A DNA stretch of 34,519 nt from a virus, in the IMG/VR virus record IMGVR_UViG_3300020171_000640, positions 1 to 34,519 of that record; one strand, written 5' to 3'. The position numbers and the translations under genes were made by a program. Shown here piece after piece: positions 13,627 through 34,395 of the stretch. Position 1 is the stretch's first letter. Every line of letters begins with the position of its first letter. The notes under the pieces are model-generated. The model worked only from the letters and a program-made list of their open reading frames with translations, ran no database searches and was not told where the DNA came from.

Positions 13627-13627
13627 A

Positions 13628-15002: not shown

Positions 15003-15010
15003 AAAAAAAA
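15003..15010 (-). terminator. T8 tract, possible archaeal-type terminator
   Basis: Eight consecutive T on the minus strand, six bases after the stop codon of the 142-aa head gene. Archaeal RNA polymerase terminates at such T-runs without needing a hairpin. Here the tract would allow partial termination after the highly expressed capsid genes, with the adjacent stem-loop perhaps stabilising transcripts. Confidence 0.45.
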
Positions 15011-15016
15011 CTCCAC

Positions 15017-16361: not shown

Positions 16362-16371
16362 TTTATTCACC

Positions 16372-16821: not shown

Positions 16822-16823
16822 CT

Positions 16824-18130: not shown

Positions 18131-18385
18131 CTAGTCACGATTTATACTTCTTTTAACGCGGGTGATAATATTCTTATCTTCGCCAACTTCATTTAAATTA
18201 GGTTCTATGATAGGATTCAATATCCGTTCTCTAGTTAATTTAATAAATTCAGATTCTTCTGAAATAGCAGTATCGCCAATTAGTTGATATGTAATATCGC
18301 CACTGTGTTTTGAACGAACTATACTTTGTCCCGTTAATGGGTCTATTAAAACGCCACGACCTTTTAAGCCAAGTATTTGTCTCAT
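18131..18385 (-). CDS. Unknown 84-aa protein in head module
   Basis: A small charged protein (MRQILGLKGRGVLIDPLTG, then SGDITYQLIGDTAISEESEF and a basic end VKRSINRD). No family is recognised and there is no Cys, membrane helix or signal. Its ATG follows GGAAGAATAAAA, which comes from the end of the 48-aa zinc protein, and its stop abuts the next ATG, so it belongs to the portal-protease transcription unit. Confidence 0.5.
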   Translation of the reverse strand: MRQILGLKGRGVLIDPLTGQSIVRSKHSGDITYQLIGDTAISEESEFIKLTRERILNPIIEPNLNEVGEDKNIITRVKRSINRD

Positions 18386-18388
18386 TTT

Positions 18389-18535
18389 TTATTCTTCCAT
18401 TATCAGTTTCTCTTTCGCTTTCTTTATTCTAGTCTGTAATTCAATAACGCATTTTCCACATAACCACATACCGCTAACTAATGCCAGTGCTGGTTGTCCA
18501 CATTTCTGACAATCAGGTTTATTAATTATATTCAT
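18389..18535 (-). CDS. 48-aa zinc ribbon protein
   Basis: A small protein: MNIINKPDCQKCGQPALAL, then MWLCGKCVIELQTRIKKAKE and end LIMEE. Two CxxC pairs (CQKC and CGKC) spaced about 18 residues apart make a minimal treble-clef or ribbon zinc site followed by a basic helix. Its ATG overlaps the portal TGA by four bases (ATGA), a coupling used widely in this genome. A nucleic-acid or protein docking role in head assembly is possible. It is too short for most gene lists but well supported by overlap, motif and frame. Confidence 0.6.
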   Translation of the reverse strand: MNIINKPDCQKCGQPALALVSGMWLCGKCVIELQTRIKKAKEKLIMEE

Positions 18536-19806
18536 TTAAACAACTTTTTATCTTTTTTCGGGTCAACCTGCGTTCCGGTATTATCCCGCGGTTGTTCTTT
18601 TTCAGGCGGACTTAAATAATCGCTTGCGTTTTCTAAATTAAGTAATTTAGCGATTTCAAGTTCTGCCATTTTTCTTAATGGGTCTGACGTATTCATCGTT
18701 TCTATTAATTTAGTTAGTTTTTCAAGTCTGTTATTTATCTCTTCTTCGCCCGGTAAATTCCAACTAAACTCAACTTCGTCAAGACTACCTGATTGCTCTA
18801 ATATCGGTTTAAATATATGTTCTTCTATTATACTTTCAATCTCGTCCTGAATTGCGCCTATCTTTCTTTGAAAGGCTTCTAATTGGACTTTAGCTAATCC
18901 TTCTGGTATATTACCGCCACCGAATAATACTATCGGAATTTCAAGCCCGTAAGCGAACATTAACATATCATGATTAAGCGTGTCTGTAATATTTTTACCT
19001 ATTTCGCCGAAATCTATTACTTTCATGTCAACATTAGAATCTGTTACCCATTCTGTTTTATTAGTCATGAACTGTAGATTCTTTTTAAACGTATCAACGC
19101 CTGCCGCGTCTATCATCTCGCCGTCACGACCTACTTTAACGTGTATAGGCGCACCAGCTTTTCTGCTGATTAATTTATGTAATTCCTCTTCGTTTAAAAT
19201 CAGGTTCTCTATAACACGTTCGTTTTGCCATATTATTCCAATACCGTACGGGTCGCCTGATATTTTATTGATAGCCAGATGCGCTATTTCCATTGGCTTA
19301 AATGTAATTAGTTTAGAACTAGACCTTGAAAACCGTTTTAAATCGCTGGACCATTGGTTGTACTCAATTACATTACCTTTCGTGTCTCGTTTAACATATA
19401 CGTTATTTGCATTTAAAACTTTAATTTTTCTATTAAGTAAGTCTATTTCTAAAAAACCGTTTCCTTTAGTTAAACTTTCTCTAATCCATTCTCGTAATAC
19501 AGTTGCGAAATTCGTGTTCTTTACGAAATCAGATATTAGTTTATTCGCTTTTTTAGTTTTCGTCTTGATTGCGAAATCGCCAACTATAGAATCAGTAAAT
19601 TTATTAATAGCGCTAGTTACTATTCCAACAGATTTATATATCTTTTCCATATCTTCAAATCTGAACGGATGTTCTGCGCCAAGTTGTTTCGGAAAACTAA
19701 TCGGAACGTCTCTAATTTCGCCCTTGAAACTTTCTTTTATCTCGTCTTTGATTGAAATATAACCGTTTAAACTAGTCTGTTTAGTTTCGTTTTTGAAAAA
19801 AGCCAT
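18532..19806 (-). CDS. Portal protein
   Basis: A 424-aa protein with the features of HK97/SPP1-type portals: PFRFEDMEKIYKSVGIVTSA near the N terminus, IRESLTKGNGFLEID, a RKIKVLNANNVYVKRDTKG wing segment, FKPMEIAHLAINKISGDPYGIG and a helical DEIESIIEEHIFKPILEQSG, with a final Lys-rich tail. It forms the dodecameric DNA gate at one vertex. It follows the large terminase by 70 bases, and a BRE/TATA-like element lies in that gap, so portal may begin its own transcript. AATAGGTATTTTA precedes the ATG. Confidence 0.8.
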   Translation of the reverse strand: MAFFKNETKQTSLNGYISIKDEIKESFKGEIRDVPISFPKQLGAEHPFRFEDMEKIYKSVGIVTSAINKFTDSIVGDFAIKTKTKKANKLISDFVKNTNFATVLREWIRESLTKGNGFLEIDLLNRKIKVLNANNVYVKRDTKGNVIEYNQWSSDLKRFSRSSSKLITFKPMEIAHLAINKISGDPYGIGIIWQNERVIENLILNEEELHKLISRKAGAPIHVKVGRDGEMIDAAGVDTFKKNLQFMTNKTEWVTDSNVDMKVIDFGEIGKNITDTLNHDMLMFAYGLEIPIVLFGGGNIPEGLAKVQLEAFQRKIGAIQDEIESIIEEHIFKPILEQSGSLDEVEFSWNLPGEEEINNRLEKLTKLIETMNTSDPLRKMAELEIAKLLNLENASDYLSPPEKEQPRDNTGTQVDPKKDKKLFK

Positions 19807-19862
19807 TAAAATACCTATTTACAACTATTAAAATCTTCCTATATATAAATTGTTTCCATATC

Positions 19863-19880
19863 TTTATATATGTTTGCTAA
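19863..19880 (-). promoter_or_regulatory. BRE/TATA-type promoter upstream of portal
   Basis: In minus-strand sense TTAGCAAACATATATAAA, overlapping the large terminase stop codon. Purine/A-rich GCAAAC followed by a TATATAAA core is the arrangement of an archaeal BRE plus TATA box. Seventeen of 18 positions match the element at 23050-23067. Transcription should start about 25 bases downstream, leaving a leader of roughly 35 bases before the portal ATG. Confidence 0.55.
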
Positions 19881-21235
19881 AGTGCTATATGTGGTGTATA
19901 TGGTTTCTTTAGTTCAAATATCATTCTCATCATTAATGCATCGCCGTAATCTGTACTTCGCCCTAACGTTTTCTTAATATCCTCTTTTGAAACGATATTG
20001 AGTTTACCGTCTTTATCAGGGTCTTTTTGTTTTATCTGTTCTAAATCTTCTATTATTTTAGTTTTAAAAATAAGCGGTTTAATAGAAATAAGTCCATTAT
20101 TTACTAATTTAGCGAAATAGAAATAACATTGGCTTTTAAGATTTAAATAATTATGTTTAGGAGGTGTTGAATAAATACCTTGCGGGGACTGTTCTATCTT
20201 GAGTTCAAGCGGTCTTGCGTTATTTATAAAACCTCTGACGCCGTGCATTTCGTCAATCAAACCGCCGCCAACACCGTCTTCGTCTATTACTACATTATAA
20301 ACAGGTATTTTATAGACATTAATTAAATTCTCTAATATTAATCTCGTTTCTTTAATAGATTGTTTCTTATAAGTAAATATTTTTTCTACTGTAAAATCTT
20401 TCCAAAGTATTATAGTCGTAACGTCATTACCGAATCTAGCTATATCTGCTGAAATGTAATATTTACCGAAACTACCCGGCAATTCTTTACCGAACATTTC
20501 AATTATTTTATCGTAGTTAAATAAATTAGTTAAATCTTCGTCGTATTCCCAATTACCGTAAAGAAGCCGTTCTTTACTTACTTTATCTAATTTCTGTAAG
20601 TTTTCTATATAATATTTAGAAATAGACTGATTATCTTTAGCTAATGCCTGTAGAAATTTTCTGTACGAAACTAACGTACCAGATTTATACGGTTTGTAAA
20701 AATCGTAATATAAAAAGTTCTTACTGGGATTTGAACATATAAGTATCTTTGGAATAAGTCCAAACTCTTCCAGTTTATATCTAATCCTTGATTTGCATAT
20801 ATTAAACGCTTTAAGCGTAATCTGTGCACCTTCGTCTATGAAAACACCGGTAAACTCACGACTACCCAAATCTGCGAATTCAGGGTCGCTCGGATATTCA
20901 AATAAATCCTTTAAGTAAATTACGCTACTATTATAGAATTTAATCGTACCTTCTATTTGGTTATAATTATAACAACCAGATAATTTCCATTTTGTACAAA
21001 TCTCAAAAAAGGTTAATAATGTACTGTCTTTAAGCGATTTAAGTACCGCTCTACCCATCAGCCATCTTGAACCGGGATATTTTAAACAATTTAAAATCAA
21101 CCATGCACAACCAAGATAAGATTTTCCACCGCCTGCACCGCCACCGAATAATAATTCGTTCGTAGTATTATCTTCTAATATTGATAATGCGTCATATTGT
21201 TTCTTAGTAGGTTTCCAGTCTATATCAAGGTTCAC
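19877..21235 (-). CDS. terL: Terminase large subunit
   Basis: A 452-aa packaging ATPase-nuclease. Walker A is GGGAGGGKS in the first 50 residues, Walker B VFIDEGAQI, and the coupling motif ICSNPS; the C-terminal RNase-H-like nuclease shows SADIARFGND, VIDEDGVGGG and DYGDALMMR, giving the expected acidic residues. It pumps DNA through the portal and cuts it. I start at GTG 21235 (MNLDIDWKPTKKQYDAL) since GAGTGAT precedes it and it falls four bases after the small terminase stop; the longer frame to 21277 would overlap that gene. An ATA codon directly before the GTG is a further candidate. Confidence 0.9.
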   Translation of the reverse strand: MNLDIDWKPTKKQYDALSILEDNTTNELLFGGGAGGGKSYLGCAWLILNCLKYPGSRWLMGRAVLKSLKDSTLLTFFEICTKWKLSGCYNYNQIEGTIKFYNSSVIYLKDLFEYPSDPEFADLGSREFTGVFIDEGAQITLKAFNICKSRIRYKLEEFGLIPKILICSNPSKNFLYYDFYKPYKSGTLVSYRKFLQALAKDNQSISKYYIENLQKLDKVSKERLLYGNWEYDEDLTNLFNYDKIIEMFGKELPGSFGKYYISADIARFGNDVTTIILWKDFTVEKIFTYKKQSIKETRLILENLINVYKIPVYNVVIDEDGVGGGLIDEMHGVRGFINNARPLELKIEQSPQGIYSTPPKHNYLNLKSQCYFYFAKLVNNGLISIKPLIFKTKIIEDLEQIKQKDPDKDGKLNIVSKEDIKKTLGRSTDYGDALMMRMIFELKKPYTPHIAL

Positions 21236-21239
21236 TATA

Positions 21240-21605
21240 TCACTCTGGTTTATGAATAGTAACGTTAATAGATTCAACTCGTTGGTCTATATTCTGTTTA
21301 GAACCGAATATCGTTCTATGTGCATCTGCTAATGCACGTATTAATTGAATCTGTAAAGCTGGTGTTAAATCATCTCGTTCACTTAATACTTTTATCATTC
21401 TCATTATAGTAATAGCACTTGTAGTCGGATTAGTTGCAAGTTCAAGCGCTTTCTGTTCTATTTTATTAGGTGATGCTCTTTTTATACCTGATATTTGTTG
21501 TGCTATTTTTCTCTTATCGCTTGAACTGCCTTTAACCTTAGCTCTAATATCGTCACTATATTTATCTCCTTTTGATTTTAGTGGAATTAGATTTTTCGTA
21601 TTCAT
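21240..21605 (-). CDS. Probable terminase small subunit
   Basis: A 121-aa basic, helical protein directly upstream of the large terminase, the standard place for the DNA-recognition subunit. It begins MNTKNLIPLKSKGDKYSDDI and carries KRKIAQQISGIKRASPNKIE, a helix-turn-helix-like stretch TTSAITIMRMIKVLS and LTPALQIQLIRALADAHRT. The family cannot be stated from sequence alone. A short GAGT site precedes its ATG, and its last codons overlap the upstream part of the longer terminase frame. Confidence 0.55.
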   Translation of the reverse strand: MNTKNLIPLKSKGDKYSDDIRAKVKGSSSDKRKIAQQISGIKRASPNKIEQKALELATNPTTSAITIMRMIKVLSERDDLTPALQIQLIRALADAHRTIFGSKQNIDQRVESINVTIHKPE

Positions 21606-21632: not shown

Positions 21633-21815
21633 TTAGATACAGTTCACATTTTTTGCAGATTTGCCTCTACTGTTCTCGGTTGGTTCAAATTCAACTTTAT
21701 CGTCTTGTTTTATTTCACTATTTAGTTCGCTTATATGGAAGAAATAATCATTTCCATCGTTTCCGCTAATAAATCCGTATCCTTTTTTACTATAAAATTT
21801 TACTATTCCGTTCAT
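21633..21815 (-). CDS. Cold-shock domain protein
   Basis: A 60-aa single cold-shock domain with both RNA-binding signatures: KKGYGFISG (RNP1) and YFFHISELN (RNP2), opening MNGIVKFYS and ending in a typical basic strand. Such proteins bind single-stranded nucleic acid and melt RNA structure. The sequence is compact and complete. AGAGGATTTA precedes the ATG, which overlaps the neighbouring stop by one base. In a virus, a role in early mRNA handling or DNA-packaging accessory activity is possible; its location between regulatory-type genes and terminase is unusual. Confidence 0.85.
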   Translation of the reverse strand: MNGIVKFYSKKGYGFISGNDGNDYFFHISELNSEIKQDDKVEFEPTENSRGKSAKNVNCI

Positions 21816-23049: not shown

Positions 23050-23067
23050 TTTATATAAGTTTGCTAA
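23050..23067 (-). promoter_or_regulatory. BRE/TATA-type promoter before the packaging operon
   Basis: In minus-strand sense TTAGCAAACTTATATAAA, matching the element upstream of portal at 17 of 18 positions. It overlaps the last codons and stop of the GT4 gene. An archaeal TATA promoter here would start a transcript near 23028, about 25 bases before the 64-aa gene ATG, and so separate the glycan island from packaging genes. Confidence 0.55.
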
Positions 23068-24157
23068 TTTTAATAGCGGTTTTATTCCAAGTATTATCTT
23101 TAGCTGTTTGTAACGCTTCTTTACCCATTTGTTCAATAATTAATGGATTATCATAAACGTATCTTAATTCTTTTCTAAGACTATTTATATCAGGTGTAGC
23201 CCATTTAATTCCTTCGTACATCACTTCGTGTTTTATTTCTTCTAATTTATAATCTATAAATAATCCGTTTGTTTTGTTAACAAAATCAGTTTGCCCACCG
23301 TAATTTGTAGTTATAACAGGAAGCCCGCACGCCATCGCCTCTATACACGGTAAATTATACGCTTCTGCTCTTGTAGGACTAATGAATACATTCGCAGAAT
23401 TATATAAATCAACCATATTTCTATAATTTATATTATTTGTATTTATAATAAGTTTAGGTAAATTTACAGTCCGCGGACTTATTTTAGTTATTAATTTATT
23501 TAAATCAGGTATACCATAGGCGGGATTGAGTTTCAATATTAATTCAACATCGTCTTTATCAGTAAATTCTTCAAAATATGCGTTGATAAGATATTGTATT
23601 CCGCCCCTATCTTGTAAATTCCTAAATCCTTTATTCGCTAAGAATGTGCATTTCTTCGGTTTCTCTTTCGGATAGAATAATTCAAGGTCTACACCATGCG
23701 GAATAAGTTTAATCTTTTTTCGTAAGTTTTCAATATCACCACATAAATGAGTATTTATGTATGTAGAAGAACTGGATGATTCACGAAAAGGAGTATTATA
23801 TAATGCATCCATTGTATGTTTACTAGGTACAAAGATATATTCTATATCTGGATTCATGCATTCTTCTATAAAGCATTTCGGTACTTTATCTCCTTCCCAT
23901 ATCAGATATACCCAATTCCTTTTAGCATTTGTATTCAATCTCCAATGTAATGGATTTGTTATAATCAAGTTTATTTCATCTTCTATAGGAGGAGATTTTA
24001 GTAATTTAAGTTCTTCATCATCCACCATTCTTTCCCAATTAGGTACTCCACCTGTTGTTATTCTAACTTCTGTTACTTTATTCAATGCTCTTGCTAAATT
24101 GCGTGTATGTGAATCATATCCTGAACTACCAAAAAAGTTACCTATTATGTTTATCAT
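23051..24157 (-). CDS. Glycosyltransferase, GT4-type
   Basis: A 368-aa GT-B fold enzyme. The N-terminal part begins MINIIGNFFGSSGYDSHTRNLARAL; KLIPHGVDLELFYPKEK is the mid-domain signature, and PTRAEAYNLPCIEAMACGLPVI is the EX7E motif that binds the donor nucleotide-sugar in GT4. It should transfer a sugar from a nucleotide donor to a growing glycan or protein in the cytoplasm. It is the last gene of the glycan island, five bases after the GT2 gene. A 460-base segment at its 5' end is CpG-poor relative to the rest. Confidence 0.8.
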   Translation of the reverse strand: MINIIGNFFGSSGYDSHTRNLARALNKVTEVRITTGGVPNWERMVDDEELKLLKSPPIEDEINLIITNPLHWRLNTNAKRNWVYLIWEGDKVPKCFIEECMNPDIEYIFVPSKHTMDALYNTPFRESSSSSTYINTHLCGDIENLRKKIKLIPHGVDLELFYPKEKPKKCTFLANKGFRNLQDRGGIQYLINAYFEEFTDKDDVELILKLNPAYGIPDLNKLITKISPRTVNLPKLIINTNNINYRNMVDLYNSANVFISPTRAEAYNLPCIEAMACGLPVITTNYGGQTDFVNKTNGLFIDYKLEEIKHEVMYEGIKWATPDINSLRKELRYVYDNPLIIEQMGKEALQTAKDNTWNKTAIKISKLI

Positions 24158-24162
24158 CTATA

Positions 24163-25044
24163 TCACTTCCTCGTTATTAAATTAGTCTCTTTTAATAAAC
24201 TTAATTCGTCTGGAATATTTTCTTTTATAAAAAAATTATTAAGTTTATCTTTATTTTCTTTTGTGAAATCTTCAAATATCCTTTGGTTAAACATAATCAG
24301 TTCATTTTGATTCTGGCTACGTTCGCCACCACTTGGTGTCATTTGATGATAATTTACAGCCATTGTATCTACACCTATTTTAAAACCAGCCATAACAGCG
24401 TTATAACTAAAAAACTGTTCTTCTCTAAATCCGTGTTTTGTTATTTTAGTCGGGTAATAACTTACTTTATCATGTACTTCTTTTTTAACAAGTGCGCAAC
24501 TTCTGAAATGATGCGCCGGTAGAATAACTGAATCTGTATACATCCAGCCGCAGTCGTCACCGTTCATAATATAATTACCATTGTCATCTAAAATTACTCT
24601 GTTTACAATTCCGTTAAGAAATTTCGGGTCGCGTTTGAATACCGGACCAGACATTGGCGTAGTAATACCGCTTGCTATATCATATCCTGCTTTTATGACA
24701 TCCAACAATCTATCTATATAATCTGGTTCTAAAATAACATCATCATCTACTCTTAATGTATATTTATAACAATCTTTACTAAACGCATAATCTACTATAG
24801 ATTGACGCGCTTTACTTACACCATATTGAAACTCGTTTCTTGTTAAAAAAACTTTATGGTTTTCTAATCTAAATCTCGTTACCATACAATTAAAAAAATG
24901 ATAATTGTTTAAATTAGTACCAGATGCGTCATCCATTATAAAAATATCAAAATTCTGATATGTTTGCGTACGTAAACTTTGCAATAATAAACATAATTCA
25001 GTTGGTCGGTCACGCGTATTAATTAATATAGCAATTTCTTTCAT
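24163..25044 (-). CDS. Glycosyltransferase family 2
   Basis: A 293-aa GT-A enzyme: IAILINTRDRPTELCLLLQS at the N terminus, DIFIMDDASG and YKYTLRVDDDVILEPDYIDR (DxD metal site), then a C-terminal LPAHHFRSCALVKKEV acceptor region and HGFREEQFFSYNA (the ED-type catalytic base). It transfers a sugar with inversion. It overlaps the aminotransferase gene by four bases (ATGA), with GGAGATAATTAA before its ATG, showing coupling. The substrate cannot be told from sequence. Confidence 0.8.
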   Translation of the reverse strand: MKEIAILINTRDRPTELCLLLQSLRTQTYQNFDIFIMDDASGTNLNNYHFFNCMVTRFRLENHKVFLTRNEFQYGVSKARQSIVDYAFSKDCYKYTLRVDDDVILEPDYIDRLLDVIKAGYDIASGITTPMSGPVFKRDPKFLNGIVNRVILDDNGNYIMNGDDCGWMYTDSVILPAHHFRSCALVKKEVHDKVSYYPTKITKHGFREEQFFSYNAVMAGFKIGVDTMAVNYHQMTPSGGERSQNQNELIMFNQRIFEDFTKENKDKLNNFFIKENIPDELSLLKETNLITRK

Positions 25045-26102
25045 TTAATTATCTCCTTTAAATTTATTATAAATTCTTTTACATCTGATTCTGTTATTGT
25101 TCCGATAGTTGCAATATGCATAACTTTATCTTTTAATTCAGATTTACCAGCGTAAATTATGAACCCTTTATTCTTAAGACCGTCGTGAATTGAATTATAA
25201 TTTAAACCAGCCGGTATTAAAACGTTTACCATTATATTTGACATGTTATCTTTTAAATAAAGTTCAAAACCGAGTTTCGTTAATTCTGATTTAAGTAAAT
25301 CGCAGTTTGATTTGAATCTATTTAATCTATTTTCAAGACCTTCTTTTAATAATTCTGTTAAATTTTCGTTTAATATATAAAATAACGGTATTGACGGCGT
25401 AAAGGGTGTTTGATTGAATTTACCATATTTTAAATAAGAATCTAAATCAAGATACATATTTCTACGTTGTAATTTAATTAATTTATTTTTCCTACAACAT
25501 ATTATTCCAATTACAGGCGGACCGCCTATTCCTTTATTTGAACTAACAGCGCAGAAATCAATATTGAATTCTTCCATATCAAGTTTTTCGCAACCTATTG
25601 CGCAAACTGCATCTATTAAATATGTTTTATTATATTTTTTACATAGTTCTCCAACTTCTTTTATTGGATTTAGCATACCAGTACTTGTTTCCATATAAAC
25701 CATTGAAACGAATTCAATATCTGGGTTTTCTATTAATATCTTTTCAATTTCTGTTATTTTAGGATATTCGCCCCATTCATAACGTAAATAAATTCTCGGT
25801 AGTCTATAAATTCTGCATATTTCATATGCACGTTCACCAAATGCGCCGTTTGAAATAACTAAAATCTTTTTGTTTACAACAGATGAAAACATTGTTTCCA
25901 ATGCTGACGTTCCAGAACCGCTTATAATTGCTATATCAAAACTCTTTTTATTACTATTAAATACTTTAAATAATTTATCTTTCATATCTTTATATAATTC
26001 TTCAAATTCTCGTTCTCTGTGTACTATATCAGGAAACTGTATAATCTTTTTAAGATTATCAGTTTTACTAACCGGACCGGCTACAAAAAGTTTATAATTC
26101 AT
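25041..26102 (-). CDS. 2-aminoethylphosphonate-transaminase-like aminotransferase
   Basis: A 353-aa class V PLP enzyme. Starts AGPVSKTDNLKKIIQFPDIVHREREFEEL, followed by IISGSGTSALETMFSSVV and ILVISNGAFGERAYE, VSMVYMETSTGMLNPI, LIDAVCAIGCEKLD and SSNKGIGGPPVIG with the PLP lysine. That chain of motifs is close to PhnW, which interconverts phosphonoacetaldehyde and 2-aminoethylphosphonate. No PepM or decarboxylase is encoded here, so any phosphonate would need host enzymes; the true substrate could be another small aldehyde. Four-base overlaps on both sides tie it to the HAD and GT2 genes. Confidence 0.65.
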   Translation of the reverse strand: MNYKLFVAGPVSKTDNLKKIIQFPDIVHREREFEELYKDMKDKLFKVFNSNKKSFDIAIISGSGTSALETMFSSVVNKKILVISNGAFGERAYEICRIYRLPRIYLRYEWGEYPKITEIEKILIENPDIEFVSMVYMETSTGMLNPIKEVGELCKKYNKTYLIDAVCAIGCEKLDMEEFNIDFCAVSSNKGIGGPPVIGIICCRKNKLIKLQRRNMYLDLDSYLKYGKFNQTPFTPSIPLFYILNENLTELLKEGLENRLNRFKSNCDLLKSELTKLGFELYLKDNMSNIMVNVLIPAGLNYNSIHDGLKNKGFIIYAGKSELKDKVMHIATIGTITESDVKEFIINLKEIIK

Positions 26103-26371
26103 TCAATCTCCTCAAATTCTTTTATACTTATATTTTTATCATCTAAATAATAATCCGCCCTTAATTTGTCCATTACAAGTAAATGATAATTAACGCCAAG
26201 TATTTTGAGATATTCTATCGTTCTTTCTCTGATAGTTGAATTTCTTGAAGTATGAATTATAACAATTGTATCCTTTTTTTCGTAAAGTTTATTAACTATA
26301 TTAATAATCTTTTTAATCGGTTTACCTTTGTTTACAAGTGTTCCGTCTAAGTCTATGGCTATCACTCTCAT
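26099..26371 (-). CDS. Small HAD phosphatase
   Basis: A 90-aa minimal HAD-superfamily protein: IDLDGTLVN (motif I nucleophile), HTSRNSTIRER (motif II) and DKLRADYYLDDKN (motifs III-IV). No cap domain is present. Similar small phosphatases occur in capsule and surface-polysaccharide clusters, removing phosphate from sugar phosphates or nucleotide-sugar precursors. ATGA overlaps link it to the aminotransferase and the preceding ORF. Confidence 0.75.
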   Translation of the reverse strand: MRVIAIDLDGTLVNKGKPIKKIINIVNKLYEKKDTIVIIHTSRNSTIRERTIEYLKILGVNYHLLVMDKLRADYYLDDKNISIKEFEEIE

Positions 26372-26472
26372 TTTTTAATCACCTTATCATGTTTTCTATG
26401 ACATTTCTTGCATAATTGTTGCCAGTCTTCTCTTATTCTTTTTTGCATATCCAATATAATAATTTCATTCAA
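26368..26472 (-). CDS. 34-aa Cys/His ORF, HNH-like remnant
   Basis: A tiny frame between the CapK-like and HAD genes. It encodes LCKKCHRKHDK, the LCxxCHxxxH end common to HNH nucleases, preceded by the helix RIREDWQQ. The start is TTG 26472, overlapping the previous gene by eight bases, or an internal ATG near 26448. Both ends overlap flanking genes as expected for an expressed gene, but it lacks the rest of an HNH domain, so it may be the C-terminal remnant of an excised endonuclease. Confidence 0.35.
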   Translation of the reverse strand: MNEIIILDMQKRIREDWQQLCKKCHRKHDKVIKK

Positions 26473-27637
26473 TTATCTCCAGTAATTTCATCCTTCCTTT
26501 ATTTGTCATCTTTTTTAATGTTATTATTTCAAGGTCAAGACCGGATTCTTGTTTAATCCATTCTTCATACCATAAAAACTTATAACTTATACTATTCCAT
26601 ACTATATATAATTTAAACTTATTATTCTTAAGGTCAACAATTACTTTCCATTTCTTTATGCTATCTCCGTATTTGTTACTTATCGGGCTTAATATCCACC
26701 ATCCTAATGGTTTCTTAGTTAACGGTCCGTCATAATAGTCTATTCCTCTGCCTACAATATCATACATAATATCATGCTTCCTACCACATTGGCAATCACT
26801 TTTCCTTAATTTGCCATAATCCTTTGTTTTATATCTTAAAATTGGTGTGATTGTATTGAACAAATCTGTGACTATAATCTCGCCATTTATAATCTCTACA
26901 ATACAAGTCTCCATATTGACGTGATAATTCCCATATTTACACTGAGACGCAACTGTGCATAATTCAGCAAGTCCATAACCAGAATAAACAGCTTTATAAT
27001 ATTGTTTTAAATAATTAGTATGTTTTCTCGTATCTTCACTCATAAGATATAAAGTAATGTTTTTCATTATATCTTCTTTGCCAAGTTTAATTAAACCAGT
27101 AGTTATCTCCCTGATAGCACCAGAACCGCCATGTATCAAGAATGGTTTATTTTTTATTATCCAATTATAATGTTCGTTTCCAATAATTCTGTAATTCATC
27201 GGTTTAACATTTCGTAACAAATCAAAAAATTTCCATTGCGGTTCACCGGCTGTAAGTCTTAGAATCCAATCTTTACCATTCCAGCCAACAGATTTCCACG
27301 CACGTTCAAATACTGCCGATTTAATATATTGTAATTCTTTCGGACCATATGTTTTAAGCGGTTCGCCAGTAGAACCAGATGAAAAATGTGTTGTTTCGTC
27401 ACCTTTAAGGTTGGGGTTGAATTTACGTAACTGTTTTTTTGTAGTTAAAGGTAATTTTTTAAAATCGTCAAATGAATTTATATCAATACCAAACGTTTTA
27501 CAAACTCGTACTAATTTAATTAATTGTAATGTATCTAACATTTCATTATTAGAATATTCATAATTATTTAAATATTTACTCCATTTTATTGTATTTTTCG
27601 TCATTTTATCGTATATTTTAAATAAATTATTTTTCAT
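26465..27637 (-). CDS. CapK/PaaK-like adenylate-forming enzyme
   Basis: A 390-aa protein of the phenylacetate-CoA ligase / CapK family. FSSGSTGEPLKTYG is the ATP P-loop, RLTAGEPQWKF and GGSGAIREIT follow, YSGYGLAELCTVASQC is the second adenylation signature, and ITPILRYKTKDYGKL with CQCGRKHD ends the N-terminal large domain. It activates a carboxylic acid as AMP ester. In capsule loci CapK-like enzymes modify sugars. ATG 27637 is used, since it overlaps the dehydrogenase stop by four bases and GGAG lies nine bases upstream; the frame continues to 27655 in the neighbour. Confidence 0.75.
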   Translation of the reverse strand: MKNNLFKIYDKMTKNTIKWSKYLNNYEYSNNEMLDTLQLIKLVRVCKTFGIDINSFDDFKKLPLTTKKQLRKFNPNLKGDETTHFSSGSTGEPLKTYGPKELQYIKSAVFERAWKSVGWNGKDWILRLTAGEPQWKFFDLLRNVKPMNYRIIGNEHYNWIIKNKPFLIHGGSGAIREITTGLIKLGKEDIMKNITLYLMSEDTRKHTNYLKQYYKAVYSGYGLAELCTVASQCKYGNYHVNMETCIVEIINGEIIVTDLFNTITPILRYKTKDYGKLRKSDCQCGRKHDIMYDIVGRGIDYYDGPLTKKPLGWWILSPISNKYGDSIKKWKVIVDLKNNKFKLYIVWNSISYKFLWYEEWIKQESGLDLEIITLKKMTNKGRMKLLEIIE

Positions 27638-28818
27638 TTGACCATTCTCCAACAATCAATCAATCTATTCTTTTTATATTTCATTTTAAGATATTCATCG
27701 TAAGGAATAGTTAATACAGTTAAATCTGCACTTTTAATTCCTTTTTGTACTTTTTTAATATAAGAAACACTATTACCAAGAAGTTCTTTAGTATTATCAA
27801 TCGCCAATGGGTCGTGTACTGTTATATTAAATCCATTACAAAATAGTTTTTTAATTATTTTAATAGACGCGCTTTCCACAACAACATCTGTTCCTATTTT
27901 AAATGCTGTTCCAAGTACTAATATTTTATTACCCCTTATATCTTTCATTCTTTCTGTTATTTTAGCTACTATTCTATCTATTTGCCTATCGTTCATTTCT
28001 ATTAAAACATCCGGGAATTTAGTATCTATTTCCAATTGTTTTAAATAATAAGATAACGCTTCATTATCTCTTGGGAAACACGTCCCGCCATACGATAATC
28101 CGGCAGTTAAAAATTTCCTGCCTATTCTGCTATCGTGTCCAAGTATATCACTTATAATATCCGGATTTGTATTCGGAATCTTATCGCAAATTTCGCCAAT
28201 AAAGTTTGCAAAATTCATTTTCATTGTAATATAATTATTCGCCATTAATTTAGCTAATTCTGCGTTTATTAAATTAGTCCTTATTATAGGCGCATTATTT
28301 TCCATAATAGATTTGCAAATGGGTTCATATAAATTACCAGAATTTTTATCGTATTCACCGATTAGTATATATTCTGGGTTTCGTATATTTTCTGTTTCAG
28401 TACCAAGCGCTAAAAATTCAGGATGATGTATCATTCCGAAATCTTTACCGCATTTCTTACCTGAAATGCTTTCTATACGTATTATTATTCTTTCTGTTGA
28501 ACCCGGTAAAACAGTACTTCTTAATACAATTAAATGATATGAACTTTTATTTTTTAATGCTTTCCCGATATTATCTGCAACTTCATTAACATAAACCAAA
28601 TTAAATGCACCTTCTTTAAGATTAGGTGTATTTACAAAGATTATACTAACATCTGTATTTTTAACTGCATATTCAGAATCATTTGTAGTTTTAATTTCAG
28701 TATCGCTTAATTTATTTATATCTACATCAACACCAATTACGTCAAATCCTTTTAAAGACATGAATTCTGCTAATGGTTTTCCAAGTTTCCCTAATCCAAA
28801 TACTGATATTGTTTTCAT
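27634..28818 (-). CDS. UDP-glucose/GDP-mannose 6-dehydrogenase family
   Basis: A 394-aa NAD-dependent dehydrogenase: SVFGLGKLGKPLAEFMSLKG (Rossmann), VLRSTVLPGST, HHPEFLALGTE, AELAKLMANNYITMKMNFAN and the catalytic YGGTCFPRDNEAL, and an NAD-binding C-terminal domain with ILVLGTAFKIGTDVV. It oxidises a nucleotide-sugar C6 to the uronate. Substrate choice between UDP-glucose, UDP-ManNAc and GDP-mannose cannot be fixed; the neighbouring epimerase makes GDP-mannose or its product plausible. Four-base overlaps on both ends. Confidence 0.8.
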   Translation of the reverse strand: MKTISVFGLGKLGKPLAEFMSLKGFDVIGVDVDINKLSDTEIKTTNDSEYAVKNTDVSIIFVNTPNLKEGAFNLVYVNEVADNIGKALKNKSSYHLIVLRSTVLPGSTERIIIRIESISGKKCGKDFGMIHHPEFLALGTETENIRNPEYILIGEYDKNSGNLYEPICKSIMENNAPIIRTNLINAELAKLMANNYITMKMNFANFIGEICDKIPNTNPDIISDILGHDSRIGRKFLTAGLSYGGTCFPRDNEALSYYLKQLEIDTKFPDVLIEMNDRQIDRIVAKITERMKDIRGNKILVLGTAFKIGTDVVVESASIKIIKKLFCNGFNITVHDPLAIDNTKELLGNSVSYIKKVQKGIKSADLTVLTIPYDEYLKMKYKKNRLIDCWRMVK

Positions 28819-30146
28819 TTTATCGGCACTCCTATACAGTTTACACCTGAACTACCTATTAGACTATAATTCAAATCAATTAATATCTTCTCTACTTCTG
28901 CTTTCTCAACATGATTTGTTTCTATAATAACAATAGGTTTATTCTTCTTGATTATATTAATTGCGCCCTTTAGGACTTCCAAATCAGCACCCTCTGCATC
29001 TATCTTTATAAGTTTTATATTTGGTACTCCTTTGAACATCTCGTCAAGGACAATCGCCTGTGGAGTTGATTTATCCTCTGATATAAGAACCTCATCTAAT
29101 CCATAATGGTCGCCTTGTTTTATAGTATAATTAACAGGACTACTAAAGACCGCTCTATGTATTGGAACAACTTTTATAGATGGATTAAGTTTCATATTAG
29201 TAAGAAGATGTTTATAACATCTCGGTGATGGTTCAAACGCAAAACAAGTTCCTTTATCATGCCAAACAGATGTATCACCGACTCCTGCACCTATATCTAA
29301 CATTATATCATCATTTTTAAATGTTTTAACTACATTTGTTATCATATTGAATACTTCTTTATCGTGATGTACATAACCTAATTTATCTATCTGATAACCC
29401 TCATCTAGTAATGTAAATCTATCAAATGTTTTTGTTATACCATTAATTTCAAGTTTAACTAAAACAGACGGTTTATCTAATCCCCATTTTTTTTTGAAAT
29501 AAATTGAGTTTCTTTTTTTAATTTTTTGACTTTCATGTTCATGCTGGTCAATATTGAATTTTCTATGATGTTCTATAAACATATCTATTTCATAAACTTT
29601 AAGACCATTTGAAAATACATTATAAGTATAATCTATATCGTCACCGTCGCCGGGGTTAAGACATTCGTCAAGCATACCTATTTTATTAATAGTCTTACGT
29701 GAAATGAACATACACCATGTACCCACCCATTTAAATCCGTCTAAATACATTTCGCCAGATGTACCGCCACCGTTTCTAACAGTTACAATTCCGCAATCTG
29801 GATATTCAGAATAACTTACCATTTCATATAACATATCTCTTCCAAGAAACTTATGAAATATTACATCATCTTGTGTTAAAAATACGTCCATATCTCCTGC
29901 GCATTTTATACCGTAATTTATAGCCAAAGTCGTTCCTTCTGCTTTTATATGATGAACTTCAATCTTATCAGGATGCGCATTTGCTAATCTATCACAATAA
30001 TCTGCCGTTCCATCATTACTTTCACTTTCAATTAATATTATTTTATACGGATATACAAAATTTTGTAATATACTATTAATCGTCATAGATAAACTATTAC
30101 CAGAATTCCTACACGGGATTATTATAGCTACCGGTTTCTCATTCAT
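28815..30146 (-). CDS. GT2 glycosyltransferase - FkbM methyltransferase fusion
   Basis: A 443-aa two-domain protein. Residues 1-200 are GT2 (IIIPCRNSGNSLSMTINSIL, IILIESESNDGT, MDVFLTQDDVIFH). Residues about 270-443 are an FkbM-type methyltransferase: MLDIGAGVGDTSVW, CFAFEPSPRCYKHLL and IKLIKIDAEGADLEVLKGA, ending VNCIGVPIK. It probably transfers and then O-methylates the same sugar. The two halves use different codons: the FkbM part prefers AAG, GAG and CTN, while the GT2 part is AAA and TTA-rich, suggesting fusion by recombination. Confidence 0.8.
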   Translation of the reverse strand: MNEKPVAIIIPCRNSGNSLSMTINSILQNFVYPYKIILIESESNDGTADYCDRLANAHPDKIEVHHIKAEGTTLAINYGIKCAGDMDVFLTQDDVIFHKFLGRDMLYEMVSYSEYPDCGIVTVRNGGGTSGEMYLDGFKWVGTWCMFISRKTINKIGMLDECLNPGDGDDIDYTYNVFSNGLKVYEIDMFIEHHRKFNIDQHEHESQKIKKRNSIYFKKKWGLDKPSVLVKLEINGITKTFDRFTLLDEGYQIDKLGYVHHDKEVFNMITNVVKTFKNDDIMLDIGAGVGDTSVWHDKGTCFAFEPSPRCYKHLLTNMKLNPSIKVVPIHRAVFSSPVNYTIKQGDHYGLDEVLISEDKSTPQAIVLDEMFKGVPNIKLIKIDAEGADLEVLKGAINIIKKNKPIVIIETNHVEKAEVEKILIDLNYSLIGSSGVNCIGVPIK

Positions 30147-31132
30147 TTCATAACCTCTTTATTTAATTTTTCGTCTGTTTCATCAATCTTAGATTTAATC
30201 CAATTATATGTTATAGTCAACCCATCTTTCATACTCCACTCCGGTTCCCAGTTAAACTTCTTCTTGAACATTGTATTATCAGAATTACGACCTCTAACGC
30301 CAAGCGGACCGTCTATATGAACTATACCCAATTTGGCGTTTCCTATTTCCATAATTATTTTAGCAAGTTCGTTTATAGAAAGCATATCATCACGACCTAT
30401 ATTAATAGGTTCTGATATATCAGAATACATTACCATTTCAAGAGCCTTTAAGCAATCATCTATATAACAAAAACTACGTGTTTGATTACCGTCTCCCCAT
30501 ATTTCAATTGTAGTTTTGCAATCTCTTTTAGCAATTATAACTTTTCTGCATATAGCAGCTGGCGATTTTTCTCTGCCACCTTTATAAGTTCCTTCCGGTC
30601 CATATATATTATGGAACCTAACAATTTTAATATCCATACCATAATTTCTATAAGATTGACATAACTGTTCCATCATAATCTTTTCCCAACCATAAGTATC
30701 CTGAGGGTCTGCTGGATAGGCATCAGATTCTTTTAGTCCGGCTATATCAGTTTTAGTTTGTTTATAATTCGGATATATACACGCGGAACTTGAATATAAT
30801 ACTTTCTTGATACCGTTTAATTTACATTCTTCAAGCGAATTAAAATCTATCATTGTATTATTATACATTATTTTCGCCTGATTATCTTTATTTTGTATAA
30901 AACCCATACCGCCCATATCTGCCGCAAGTAACCATGCTTCGTCAATACCTTCAAATGCTTTAATACAATTATTCCTATATCGTAAATCCAGTTTAAGAAA
31001 TTCGTCACATTCAAGACCGTATTTTGGTTCTTTCCAATCTACACCCCTTACAAAGTGTCCTTGTTCTTTCAGTCTCTTACATAGGTGATGCCCGATAAAT
31101 CCTGCGGCACCCGTTACTATTATCCTTGTCAT
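30143..31132 (-). CDS. GDP-mannose 3,5-epimerase-like NAD epimerase
   Basis: A 329-aa extended SDR enzyme that closely follows the plant-type GDP-mannose 3,5-epimerase: ITGAAGFIGHHLCKRL, LLAADMGGMGFIQ, YNNTMIDFNSLEE, SSACIYPNYKQ with the catalytic Cys, DTYGWEKIM (YxxxK), FHNIYGPEGTYKGGREKSPA and INIGRDDMLSINE, ending GVRGRNSDNTMFKKKFNW. The product would be GDP-L-galactose or GDP-L-gulose. Conserved Ile residues here are encoded by ATA, showing the standard code. ATGA overlaps join it to both neighbours. Confidence 0.85.
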   Translation of the reverse strand: MTRIIVTGAAGFIGHHLCKRLKEQGHFVRGVDWKEPKYGLECDEFLKLDLRYRNNCIKAFEGIDEAWLLAADMGGMGFIQNKDNQAKIMYNNTMIDFNSLEECKLNGIKKVLYSSSACIYPNYKQTKTDIAGLKESDAYPADPQDTYGWEKIMMEQLCQSYRNYGMDIKIVRFHNIYGPEGTYKGGREKSPAAICRKVIIAKRDCKTTIEIWGDGNQTRSFCYIDDCLKALEMVMYSDISEPINIGRDDMLSINELAKIIMEIGNAKLGIVHIDGPLGVRGRNSDNTMFKKKFNWEPEWSMKDGLTITYNWIKSKIDETDEKLNKEVMK

Positions 31133-32517
31133 TTCTTTTCACCTATTAATAATTGTTTTGAAAATAACATATTAGTCGGCGTTTCTTTTATTTTTATACC
31201 AATAGACTCTATTAATCTAATCCAGTTTTCTTTTGTTTTAAATTGTTTATGGGTTTTATCTGCCATAAGATTTGGGTCGTCTATAAATGGTATACTAAAT
31301 AAAAAATTAGTACCGAATTTTTTCATATTATTTAATGTTTTTTTAAGTTCATCATCTGTTAAATGCTCTAATACATCTATAGCAGTAATCAAATCTACTT
31401 TTTTATAATTTTTTCCGTCTGAAATATCGCCACAAATTATATCATTACAAAACGCATGGTCTACAGCAAATTTGCTTTTTTCTATTCCAATTGAATTCGC
31501 AAACCATTTCCAAAAATATAAATACGCACCTCTACCGCAACCTAATGTAAGAACACTATTAGGTTTAAAATAATCGTTCCACTGTTTTACCATTAATACA
31601 TTTTTTAATTCAATACCTCTATTATCAAAATATAGTTCATCTTTATCTACACAAAATTCATTTAATATTATTTCAGGTATATCAATTGGGTTTACTTTAG
31701 TAATAGGATAATTACCAAATAAATGGTCGTTTCGCCATTTACGTAAATATTCAGCAGTATGCATTTCAGACTTTTTCATATGATTTAAATATCGTTTTTT
31801 AATTTCAAACATACCCGGACAATATGCTAAATGCCAAATAGTTACTCCACTAAATTTACCAACTCGTTCATTATATTCTTCTATAGTAACATCTTTACCG
31901 TTTTTTATATGTAAAACAGGATGTTCTACTTCTGGATAAATCAAATCTTCTTTTACTATAAATAATCTATTTAATACAAAATGTTCTTTAACAGTTGCGT
32001 CTTCATAACCTAAACTTTCAATGAAATGTCTCATTTTAACTGAAATAACGTTTTTTGTAAATATCATATTTCTTTCGTTAAAATATTCATTACGTTCAGT
32101 TTCTTCATCTATAAATTTTTTAAGTTTAATTATATCATCTAATACTTCGTCTGCGTCAAGTACAAGTACCCATTCCCCCATATGATGCTTCTTGAGATAA
32201 TCAAGATAATAATTACGTTGTTTGCCGTTCATGCCTTTGTCTGATTGGTCATAATTGTTGTGTATTATTATTCTATTTCTGTTTGCATAAATACTTCCAT
32301 TAGTTTTATTTTTAGAAGAAACCCACCCTGTTTCTATTTCTAAAACACCATCACCGTTATCAAACATAAACCCATTTTCTTTTAATATATTTAGAGTATT
32401 ATCTGTACTCCCACCGTCACAAAAAATAATATTGTCTGCACCTTGGACACTCTTCAAACACATAGGTAAGAACTTTTCACAATTCTGTCCCATTATAACA
32501 ACATTAAGTTTAGTCAT
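31129..32517 (-). CDS. GT2 glycosyltransferase - SAM methyltransferase fusion
   Basis: A 462-aa protein. Residues 1-about 250 are a GT2 of the DGGSTDNT type (VVIMGQNCEKFLPMCLKSVQ, IIFCDGGSTDNT, EWVLVLDADEVL with a DxD-like DAD, IWHLAYCPGMFEIKKRY). Residues about 310-462 are a class I methyltransferase: SVLTLGCGRGAYLYFWKWF, DLITAIDVLEHLTDDELKKT and FSIPFIDDP. Transfer and methylation of one sugar would again be linked. It is the second such fusion in the island. AGGAGGATTTGAA supplies a strong ribosome binding site. Confidence 0.8.
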   Translation of the reverse strand: MTKLNVVIMGQNCEKFLPMCLKSVQGADNIIFCDGGSTDNTLNILKENGFMFDNGDGVLEIETGWVSSKNKTNGSIYANRNRIIIHNNYDQSDKGMNGKQRNYYLDYLKKHHMGEWVLVLDADEVLDDIIKLKKFIDEETERNEYFNERNMIFTKNVISVKMRHFIESLGYEDATVKEHFVLNRLFIVKEDLIYPEVEHPVLHIKNGKDVTIEEYNERVGKFSGVTIWHLAYCPGMFEIKKRYLNHMKKSEMHTAEYLRKWRNDHLFGNYPITKVNPIDIPEIILNEFCVDKDELYFDNRGIELKNVLMVKQWNDYFKPNSVLTLGCGRGAYLYFWKWFANSIGIEKSKFAVDHAFCNDIICGDISDGKNYKKVDLITAIDVLEHLTDDELKKTLNNMKKFGTNFLFSIPFIDDPNLMADKTHKQFKTKENWIRLIESIGIKIKETPTNMLFSKQLLIGEKK

Positions 32518-32648
32518 TTCAAATCCTCCTTGTAATATTCTTTCTCAAATGCTGCGCATCCTTCTTCCGAATCGCATACGACTGTTCCTCCAACGCATGC
32601 GAACTTACCGGCATGCGGACCTGATTCTACTTTAAAATATTTTCTCAT
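32514..32648 (-). CDS. 44-aa Cys-containing protein
   Basis: A complete small gene: MRKYFKVESGPHAGKFACVG, GTVVCDSEEGCAAFEKEYYK and end EDLK. It has three Cys and a Gly-rich start but no recognised fold. The ribosome binding site AGGAGGATTTGAA-ATG is among the best in the window; the same 17-base string ending in TGA also closes this gene and supplies the site for the next. ATGA overlaps at both ends prove coupling. It is shorter than most automatic cut-offs. Confidence 0.6.
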   Translation of the reverse strand: MRKYFKVESGPHAGKFACVGGTVVCDSEEGCAAFEKEYYKEDLK

Positions 32649-32950
32649 TTCAAATCCTCCTCTGTGATATTGAATTTCTCTTTGATGTATTCTATTTTAC
32701 TTTTGCGCTTAGCACGGCATGTGCAATCATACGAACCCATTCTGCATATCTTGCAAAGATTGGTAGTTGGTTTATGTTCATCTGATTTTATTGCCTGATA
32801 TATTTCTTCTATTTCCTTATGATATTGTTTTATGTCTTCTATTGCTGATTGTCTCATAATGATTAGAGCATATTGTTTCCCTTGTTCATATTCATAATAT
32901 TTATTTTTTATAGGTAAATCAAATTGTTTTATGTCTTTTATAGTATTCAT
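32645..32950 (-). CDS. 101-aa protein with a CxxC zinc-like pair
   Basis: A helical N-terminal part (KQFDLPIKNKYYEYEQGKQY, IEDIKQYHKEIEEIYQAIK) followed by NLCKICRMGSYDCTCRAKRK, a Cys-rich site of four Cys (CxxC, then CxC), and a basic end ITEEDLK. It may be a regulator or protein adaptor. The final GAGGAGGATTTGAAATGA encodes EEDLK and also serves as the next gene's ribosome binding site. The ATG has only a weak upstream site. Confidence 0.5.
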   Translation of the reverse strand: MNTIKDIKQFDLPIKNKYYEYEQGKQYALIIMRQSAIEDIKQYHKEIEEIYQAIKSDEHKPTTNLCKICRMGSYDCTCRAKRKSKIEYIKEKFNITEEDLK

Positions 32951-32969
32951 TTAATCGCTTCTAATTTCT

Positions 32970-34223
32970 TTATTCATTTCTCTTAAGTTCCCACGGCGTG
33001 TTCGTGCCTTTAAACTTGCGCCATTTAGTGTTTATATCTTTTGCTATTCTTTCTATTTCTATATTACTAAATCCTTTTATTTTAACATTAGTTTTACCTG
33101 ACGTTTGATAAATATTATAATCTTTTGATATTAATTTAACACCAAATTTATCTGGATTTTTCCAGACAGGCGTTCCGGGATATGCAACTAATGTATAAAA
33201 ATCTGCAAAATCAAGATTTTCTTCAATCGCAAAATGTAAACAATCATACATTGTTTCTTTAGTCGCACCGGGAAGATTTAAAACAAAACTTCCTCTGATT
33301 CCTATATCATATTGTTTCGCTAATCTAACAGCTTTTATATTATTTTCTCGTGTATTATTCTTTTGTATATTCTTCAATACATTATTATCCATGTGTTCAA
33401 GACCAAATGATATAGACCTTATACCTGCATCCTTGAGTGCAATCATCATCTCTTCGTCTATTGTATCTGTTCTGCTTGTTAATCTAAATGAACCTAGTTT
33501 CTCTTCTTGCATCCGCTTAGCAAACTCCAATACTCTTGTCTTGTTTATAGTGAAGCAATCGTCTATGAAGTAGAATGACCTGAAACCATAATTGTCATGC
33601 AGTATCTTCATCTCTTTCATTATACGGTCTACGCTATGCATCCTATAGCCTTCACCCATTATTGTCTTGCCACAGAAGAAGCATCTAAATGGGCATGACC
33701 GTGAGCTTAATATCACGCCAGTCCTTATCCCTTCTTGTATAATCCCGTATCTTTCTACCGGCACTAAATCCCAGGCAGGCATAGGTAGTGTATCTATATC
33801 CTTTATTAGAGGATACATAATAATCCCGTGTTTTAATTTACCTTCAACTATATCTATAATTGCTCTTTCTCCTTCTCCTTTAACAATATAGTCAAACTGT
33901 TCTATAAGGGAATCTGGATCTGCACTCGCATGTGGACCGCCTGCTATAAGTTTAGCATTAGGATAATTGTGTCTTAGATGACTTGCATAATTCTTACACC
34001 ATGCAAGATATGGTGTAGTTGTTGTTATGGCTATGAACTCTGGCTGTATGAAGTTTAGTTTCTGCTTCAAGGTATAATAACTATCATGATTCAAGTCACA
34101 TATAGTTGGTCTATGTCCTGCTCTTCTTAATGCGCCTGCTAGATATAGAGCACCCATTGGTGGTCTGTCTCCTGCTTCAACAAGCATTGCCTGTTCTGGG
34201 GGGGTAATAAGTACTATATTCAT
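32970..34223 (-). CDS. B12-binding-type radical SAM enzyme
   Basis: A 417-aa protein. Residues 1-130 form a B12-binding-like Rossmann domain (MNIVLITPPEQ, MGALYLAGALRRAGHRP, KLIAGGPHASADPDS). Cys177, Cys181 and Cys184 form CPFRCFFC for the 4Fe-4S cluster; RMHSVDRIMKEMK and SISFGLEHMDNNVL follow, as in the B12 radical SAM group (methylation or related radical chemistry). The frame reaches 34325, but GGGTGAC precedes ATG 34223 (MNIVLITPPE, the normal N terminus), so I start there. Codon use changes within the gene: first two-thirds AAG/GAG-containing, last third almost only AAA and TTA. Confidence 0.8.
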   Translation of the reverse strand: MNIVLITPPEQAMLVEAGDRPPMGALYLAGALRRAGHRPTICDLNHDSYYTLKQKLNFIQPEFIAITTTTPYLAWCKNYASHLRHNYPNAKLIAGGPHASADPDSLIEQFDYIVKGEGERAIIDIVEGKLKHGIIMYPLIKDIDTLPMPAWDLVPVERYGIIQEGIRTGVILSSRSCPFRCFFCGKTIMGEGYRMHSVDRIMKEMKILHDNYGFRSFYFIDDCFTINKTRVLEFAKRMQEEKLGSFRLTSRTDTIDEEMMIALKDAGIRSISFGLEHMDNNVLKNIQKNNTRENNIKAVRLAKQYDIGIRGSFVLNLPGATKETMYDCLHFAIEENLDFADFYTLVAYPGTPVWKNPDKFGVKLISKDYNIYQTSGKTNVKIKGFSNIEIERIAKDINTKWRKFKGTNTPWELKRNE

Positions 34224-34242
34224 TCTAAATGTCACCCTTTTA

Positions 34243-34395
34243 TTATTTTGTAAATTTGGCTCCGCAAAACTTACAATAATAATCCCACATAATAACACTG
34301 TTTTGATCTCTATATTCATAACCACTTTGGTATATTATACCATATTTTTTACATGCAGGACATTTATCTTCTTTATTAATCAGTACCATTTTCAT
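34243..34395 (-). CDS. 50-aa zinc ribbon protein
   Basis: A compact zinc ribbon: MKMVLINKEDKCPACKKYGI, then a beta hairpin and DYYCKFCGAKFTK. Two CxxC knuckles (CPAC, CKFC) about 28 residues apart. ATG 34395 is chosen because AGGTGATATT lies immediately before it; a longer frame to 34431 would overlap the upstream ORF. A nucleic-acid binding or transcription role is possible but unproven. Confidence 0.6.
   Translation of the reverse strand: MKMVLINKEDKCPACKKYGIIYQSGYEYRDQNSVIMWDYYCKFCGAKFTK

Follow-up and report, generated by a model that had tools for sequence, protein, structure and literature searches.

A candidate modular glycan-assembly island in tailed viruses, probably of DPANN archaea

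Giant viruses of the Megavirinae carry clade-specific glycosylation clusters of 6–33 genes (PMC10117803), the cyanophage S-SCSM1 encodes a GDP-mannose 3,5-epimerase (GME) (PMC9602691), and sugar-nucleotide genes are known in methanogen and groundwater viruses (PMC9723712, PMC10980836). Mycobacteriophage glycosyltransferases (GTs) glycosylate capsid and tail tube, according to a study cited in a later paper (Freeman 2023, cited in PMC12619734). Campylobacter jejuni makes a glucuronamide capsule carrying serinol or ethanolamine through Cj1435–Cj1441 (PMC13276843), and head-tailed proviruses of DPANN archaea have been described in Woesearchaeales, in a text that does not mention glycosyl genes (PMC11705971). 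Here we describe a glycan island on IMG/VR record IMGVR_UViG_3300020171_000640, analyzed over positions 1 to 34,519 (34,519 nucleotides, hereafter the window). At roughly even odds (about 0.5), we suggest that it is a virus-encoded modular glycan-assembly locus in a tailed-virus lineage probably of DPANN archaea, and that it glycosylates viral proteins in a type-variable way. A model's reading of the window's sequence, here called the original prediction, had seen a chain of glycan enzymes; to this we add a fixed chassis with exchangeable slots and a likely archaeal host, and we did not find a chassis-and-slot arrangement described in the literature searched.

The island, its virus and its probable host

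The island spans 23051–34325 on the minus strand, beyond the 24163–32517 stretch where eight enzymes in a chain of mostly 4-base overlaps had first been noted. All eight open reading frames are there on the minus strand with the domains claimed for them, including three GT2 domains and two methyltransferase domains, one FkbM and one class-I S-adenosylmethionine (SAM) domain with weak Pfam matches. Overlaps of 4 bases occur at 5 of the 7 junctions as annotated, and at a sixth if the ATG at 27637 is taken as the start of CapK, where ATGA is shared with the stop of the 6-dehydrogenase (UGDH) gene; CapK relatives also begin at the corresponding methionine, and the sequences indicate that 27637 is probably the true start. 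The HAD/CapK junction, with a 93-base gap, is the sole exception. Below, chassis marks the constant genes and slot the exchangeable positions.

32970–34325, minus strand: B12-binding radical SAM protein (Pfam Radical_SAM 2e-21, B12-binding 1.6e-17), with homologues in many sister islands
32645–32950, minus strand: small protein, function not assigned, recurrent in sister islands (matches L036 6537–6800, 47%, and L029 7577–7930, 34%)
31129–32517, minus strand: GT2-MT, a fusion of GT2 and class-I methyltransferase, chassis gene 1 (Pfam; sister-virus orthologue 55% identical; in most islands)
30143–31132, minus strand: GME, slot 1 (Pfam Epimerase; phmmer 2c59; viral orthologues 51–85% identical)
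28815–30146, minus strand: GT2-FkbM fusion, chassis gene 2, its GT2 constant and its FkbM optional (Pfam; fkbM_fam above cut-off; gene order)
27634–28818, minus strand: NDP-sugar 6-dehydrogenase of UGDH/AlgD type, slot 2 (three Pfam domains of the UDPG_MGDP_dh set; TIGR03026; catalytic Cys in GGTCFPRD)
26465–27655, minus strand: CapK/PaaK-like adenylate-forming (ANL) ligase, slot 2 (hmmsearch 9s3l; SGSTGEP invariant in viral copies)
26099–26371, minus strand: cap-less HAD phosphatase of 90 aa, slot 2 (Pfam Hydrolase_3; BT0820 family below cut-off; four motifs)
25041–26102, minus strand: PhnW-like class-V aminotransferase, slot 2 (Aminotran_5; TIGR03301 below cut-off; Arg to His)
24163–25044, minus strand: GT2c glycosyltransferase, chassis gene 3 (Pfam Glycos_transf_2)
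23051–24157, minus strand: GT4 glycosyltransferase, chassis gene 4, adjoining the head genes (Pfam Glycos_transf_1; among the most conserved island genes)
15492–21277, minus strand: virus head module of terminase, portal, protease and capsid, directly downstream of the island (PHROGs; syntenic in sister viruses)

The B12-binding radical SAM protein is an optional island member and possibly a C- or P-methylase or similar enzyme.

The window bears the terminase, portal, protease, HK97-type capsid, tape measure and tail hub genes of a tailed virus (Caudoviricetes; PHROGs) along with Phage_tube_2, and the island lies on the same strand as all six of these genes and abuts the head operon. The late genes recur on G002, a 44.6-kb sister contig (terminase 59.5% and capsid 60% identical), which has its own glycan island at the equivalent place, with different enzymes mid-island. 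The window capsid gene also occurs on 15 of 20 tested contigs that bear the island GT2, and the cluster is thus virus-encoded, as had been proposed. A scan of 84,980 cellular genomes with chassis genes gave one match, itself a viral contig with hub and tape measure genes, and among 371 DPANN genomes there was one distant CapK relative (26% identity), lacking aminotransferase or HAD alongside, and GME in four, the rest of the cluster not being seen in the ~4-kb loci examined. An intact cluster in host chromosomes, which would have spoken for a cellular origin, was therefore not found in either set, and the catalytic motifs of the enzymes are intact. The island does sit at one end of a linear contig, and cellular glycan loci hold similar enzyme types, as would be expected of host chromosome flanking a provirus or of a chimeric assembly, but dozens of independent viral contigs, some near-complete, carry the island beside terminase and the sole match among the cellular genomes is a virus contig, leaving this explanation barely credible.

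We consider an archaeal host probable and a DPANN host somewhat less so. In tblastn, the portal matched 43 of 50,697 phage records, and 42 of these carry the name of a haloarchaeal tailed virus. The tail hub had no match in this set, but a search with its profile led to proviruses in DPANN genomes, in which homologues of protease, capsid, tape measure and hub follow one another in order; one of these proviruses lies in a contig of 421 kb. A chassis relative in a Pacearchaeota metagenome-assembled genome (MAG) encodes a full-length PCNA (E 8e-11 to sliding clamp) and a family-B polymerase. Shine-Dalgarno-like sites precede 21 of 35 genes, with 4.5 expected, by a stricter motif than that of a first count, which included AAAG and was uninformative; the pattern GGAGG-N6-ATG gave no match. 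Bacteroidota genes are generally without Shine-Dalgarno sites.

The DPANN proviruses (L106–L107 in G120:C2 and L108–L109 in G112:C29) have capsid, protease and hub distantly related to those of the window, and the one in G120:C2 has DndA/DndC-like genes nearby, as in published Woesearchaeales proviruses (PMC11705971). The Pacearchaeota MAG contig (G007:C11; L087–L089, L039) is a virus contig of ~61 kb with PolB, PCNA, RNA ligase, QueD/QueE-like and DNA methyltransferase genes and the same glycan chassis.

Conserved gene order and exchangeable slots

Related contigs were collected by scans with alignments of chassis genes, which did better than a single-sequence GME scan of IMG/VR that gave no match. 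This search for the gene set in related genomes, a check suggested in the original prediction, yielded 39 related loci, nearly all on viral contigs. The presence matrix and gene orders resolve a chassis that runs GT4b, (radical SAM), GT2-MT, slot 1, GT2 with or without FkbM, slot 2, GT2c, GT4, terminase and portal. The order GT2-MT, GT2, GT2c, GT4 is kept in 17 of the 17 loci with all four genes, and 36 of the 39 loci have both GT2c and GT4. Dozens of viral contigs repeat this gene set and its order, and the island is therefore more than a chance grouping.

Slot 1 holds GME in the window, L025, L026, L043 and L063 (51% in the last); a SPASM-like radical SAM enzyme in L077, L045, L029, L027 and L052; and a thiamine pyrophosphate (TPP) enzyme pair with a cupin and a GDP-mannose-dehydratase-type enzyme in L021, L091, L054 and L069. 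In slot 2, the full UGDH-CapK-HAD-aminotransferase set is found in the window and L077, CapK-HAD-aminotransferase in L045, L040 and L036, HAD-aminotransferase in L043, a dehydrogenase lacking its C-terminal domain in L025, L026 and L063, and nothing recognizable in L052, L046 and L091; L036 has a UGDH (72%) at the contig edge, before the SPASM gene and outside slot 2. CapK is always accompanied by the aminotransferase (6 of 6 records; Fisher p 7e-6, ignoring relatedness), and several contigs hold the module without interruption. Capsids 84–85% identical to that of the window occur with other payloads (G014, G017, G019), G017 and G019 being without GME, CapK and aminotransferase, so that members of this virus family almost alike in capsid may differ in the sugars they display. 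The slots are a description drawn from gene orders, not from mapped recombination breakpoints.

We tentatively propose, as a stronger and rather doubtful form of this idea, that the island is a "virion serotype" locus: DPANN tailed viruses would share a conserved GT assembly line with two swapped donor or decoration slots, and lineages with near-identical capsids would display different, chemically complex glycans. L-galactose combined with an amidated uronate is one example, and the hosts, with their reduced genomes, may be unable to produce such glycans themselves.

Several sister islands contain insertions. In L024:8314–9816 (contig 3300033143_003234), an RRXRR plus HNH protein of IscB type lies between aminotransferase and GT2c, and HNH-type or other insertions break GT4, TPP-enzyme and GME genes of sister islands at L036:8289–9101, L037:1327–1797, L021:4443–4847 and L024:3475–5478, as if the island were repeatedly targeted by homing endonucleases. 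Elsewhere in the window, an HNH endonuclease lies amid the head-tail genes (13063–13653) and a small protein with a cold-shock domain (21633–21815) is encoded immediately upstream of the terminase region. The sister contig G002 carries, close to two tRNAs and its tail-fibre genes, a second small glycan-like group (L023:3342–6306) made up of a GT2, a short-chain dehydrogenase and a possible methyltransferase.

Predicted chemistry and acceptor

As had been read from the sequence, the epimerase belongs to the GDP-mannose 3,5 type: phmmer aligned residues 3–320 to the Arabidopsis GME (2c59) at E 2.8e-113, the next family following at E 3e-27. The motifs SSACIYP, YGWEK, GGREK and GVRGRNSDN align to 2c59 and are retained in viral copies, and the catalytic C, YxxxK, K and R are conserved; the positions of the Cys/Lys acid-base pair and YxxxK are presumed after the Arabidopsis enzyme. 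The case for this assignment from sequence is strong. The 6-dehydrogenase was also recognized, with N, central and C domains (Pfam), 284 bits to TIGR03026 where the cut-off is 189.8, and its catalytic Cys; AlgD and Pyrobaculum UGDH tied as best PDB matches, leaving UDP-glucose and GDP-mannose as equal candidates for its substrate. The shortened homologues beside GME islands (L025:11704–12606, L026:10993–11847) lack the C-terminal nucleotide-binding domain and keep the catalytic Cys.

The CapK-like ligase had no Pfam match, and was recognized as PaaK/ANL type by a profile of three viral copies against solved structures (9s3l, E 4.5e-15), with NCBIfam in agreement; the adenylate motif SSGSTGEP (SSGTTG-like) is present, and the predicted structure is of low quality (predicted local distance difference test, pLDDT, 43). 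The HAD protein is phosphatase-like by its DxDGT, T, K and DD motifs, and copies 78% and 70% identical stand at the same position in sister islands L077 and L045. The PhnW-like aminotransferase is also present (Aminotran_5 5.9e-20), and with it the original prediction had raised a phosphonate-bearing glycan, the enzyme making 2-aminoethylphosphonate. Its best solved relatives do include PntC-AEPT (6pd1) and PhnW (1m32), its match to TIGR03301 is full-length, and the nearby B12 radical SAM protein has PhpK-like similarity. However, the enzyme falls below both PhnW equivalog cut-offs (TIGR03301 283.3 vs 360.8; TIGR02326 215.6 vs 400.8), and the Arg of FRIGNIG, found in 1m32 and 6pd1 and which we take to bind the substrate carboxylate, is His (HIATIG/HIATMG) in the viral copies covering the site. 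Pfam domain searches showed no phosphoenolpyruvate (PEP) mutase, phosphonopyruvate decarboxylase or cytidylyltransferase, and for these reasons a phosphonate is improbable. We favor instead, by analogy, a glycan with an amidated uronate, because dehydrogenase, pyridoxal phosphate (PLP) enzyme, ATP-dependent ligase and phosphatase together match the serinol-glucuronamide set of C. jejuni.

In the pathway that we propose, GME would convert host GDP-mannose to GDP-L-galactose or GDP-L-gulose, and a chassis GT would add the resulting sugar. A uronic acid would be made and then transferred, the aminotransferase would yield an amino-alkyl phosphate, and the ligase would couple this to the uronate carboxylate as an amide, with the phosphatase stripping the phosphate afterwards as in the serinol-glucuronamide pathway of the C. 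jejuni capsule. Methyltransferases would cap the glycan. The acceptor would most likely be a viral protein, namely the capsid, the tail tube (10985–11860) or a large exported-looking adhesin, and a change of module would change the glycan type of the virion. Between tape measure and hub, the window encodes a 1387-aa protein (3899–8062) that combines a hydrophobic segment at its N-terminus with DUF2341 and a NosD/beta-helix region. Its counterpart in G014 has LamG3 plus DUF2341, and the window protein is a possible adhesin and glycan acceptor.

Where the glycan would be attached is the point on which explanations diverge. Hydropathy predicts no membrane segments in the eight enzymes or GT4, and Pfam and hydropathy revealed no flippase, polymerase, oligosaccharyltransferase or membrane GT; soluble enzymes without such machinery make a cytosolic acceptor, viral protein or DNA, more plausible than a lipid-linked envelope glycan. 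For a protein acceptor, the solved folds closest to the GT2c model (AlphaFold, pLDDT 81) are those of polypeptide GalNAc-transferases (Z 20.7; others up to about 19), which serves as a lead only. GT2c had generic GT-A matches alone in a viral structure library and no match among the 50,697 phage records. The island might nonetheless remodel the host envelope during infection, changing surface glycans or the S-layer glycoprotein and thereby the receptor, or blocking superinfection, as in serotype conversion. The payloads GME, UGDH, CapK, TPP enzyme and dehydratase resemble O-antigen or capsule modules, one GT2 has a weak GtrB-like match, and similar genes in methanogen viruses and cyanophages have been read in this way (PMC9723712, PMC9602691), but against it stand the missing membrane machinery, the position beside the head operon in late-gene orientation and the lack of an identified integrase in the window or the listed near-complete sister genomes. 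Envelope remodeling is thus the main rival, though a less likely one. Hypermodification of viral DNA is a much weaker candidate still. Phage GTs that glycosylate DNA exist, according to a study cited elsewhere (Pyle 2024, cited in PMC12619734), and some sister contigs encode DNA methyltransferases, but a DNA acceptor is disfavored because the thymidylate synthase/hydroxymethylase family (PF00303) is absent from 14 viral records while the control was positive in 9 genomes; Tet_JBP also gave no match, a void result since its control was negative too.

Several points weigh against glycosylation of viral proteins by a modular island in DPANN viruses. Both the viral-protein acceptor and the glycan are predicted, not demonstrated. 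The likeness of the GT2c model to GalNAc-transferase folds is no proof of function. The uronamide chemistry rests on gene neighborhood, the C. jejuni ligase being likened by analogy, and the product of the ligase could instead be a CoA ester or another acyl transfer. Two members of the family have the module with no visible 6-dehydrogenase (G020, 3300035698_018016), and L029 has a 120-aa protein at the HAD position of other islands. On visual inspection this L029 frame (14922–15284, Cx5RS) resembled a low-molecular-weight phosphatase, but it had no match in Pfam or the PDB, and we do not claim a substituted phosphatase. For the host, the terminase is closest to Bacteroidota phages (about 49%) and MAG binning can be wrong; the terminase would suggest a Bacteroidota host, but the evidence from portal, hub, capsid and Shine-Dalgarno sites disfavors one.

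Significance and comparison with known systems

If the glycan is on the virion, these viruses would have type-variable sugar coats in hosts without antibodies, a sign that receptors, rival viruses or decay in the environment exert selection on them. The PhnW-like transaminase with its altered substrate site and the viral CapK ligase are enzymes of interest, and the island genes offer genetic markers for viruses of DPANN archaea. As to the suggestion that the gene combination is unlike that of any described virus, the part concerning the CapK/PhnW-like module stands, as we did not find this module described in a virus and the 50,697 phage records gave two distant CapK and ten distant aminotransferase matches, whereas a viral GME was already known from S-SCSM1 (PMC9602691).

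The cyanophage is also a tailed virus with a GME (44% identical), other sugar enzymes and GTs, though it is T4-like, a CapK/aminotransferase module is not reported for it, and its genes are not described as an exchangeable terminase-side cassette. The Woesearchaeales proviruses are head-tailed proviruses of DPANN archaea, and the proviruses that we found in DPANN contigs share protease, major capsid protein and hub synteny with the window; unlike in the window, no glycan island was found in the proviral stretches examined here. Mycobacteriophages offer, from what the citing paper reports, a precedent for phage GTs acting on capsid and tail tube, in a different virus with a different probable host. 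We know of no sugar-nucleotide payload modules in mycobacteriophage virion glycosylation. In C. jejuni, a 6-dehydrogenase, a PLP enzyme, an ATP-dependent ligase and a phosphatase lead to an amidated uronic acid; there the product is a bacterial capsule, whereas the island has a PaaK/CapK-like ligase and a PhnW-like PLP enzyme, its enzymes being likened to Cj1438C, Cj1437 and Cj1435 by analogy, not homology. The Megavirinae are eukaryotic nucleocytoplasmic large DNA viruses, whereas here a compact island with fixed GT order and two slots is carried by tailed viruses of roughly 45 kb, with orthology between the two not established and the acceptor only predicted in our case. What the two systems have in common is virus-encoded nucleotide-sugar pathways and GTs that vary among close relatives, put to use in the Megavirinae for virion fibrils.

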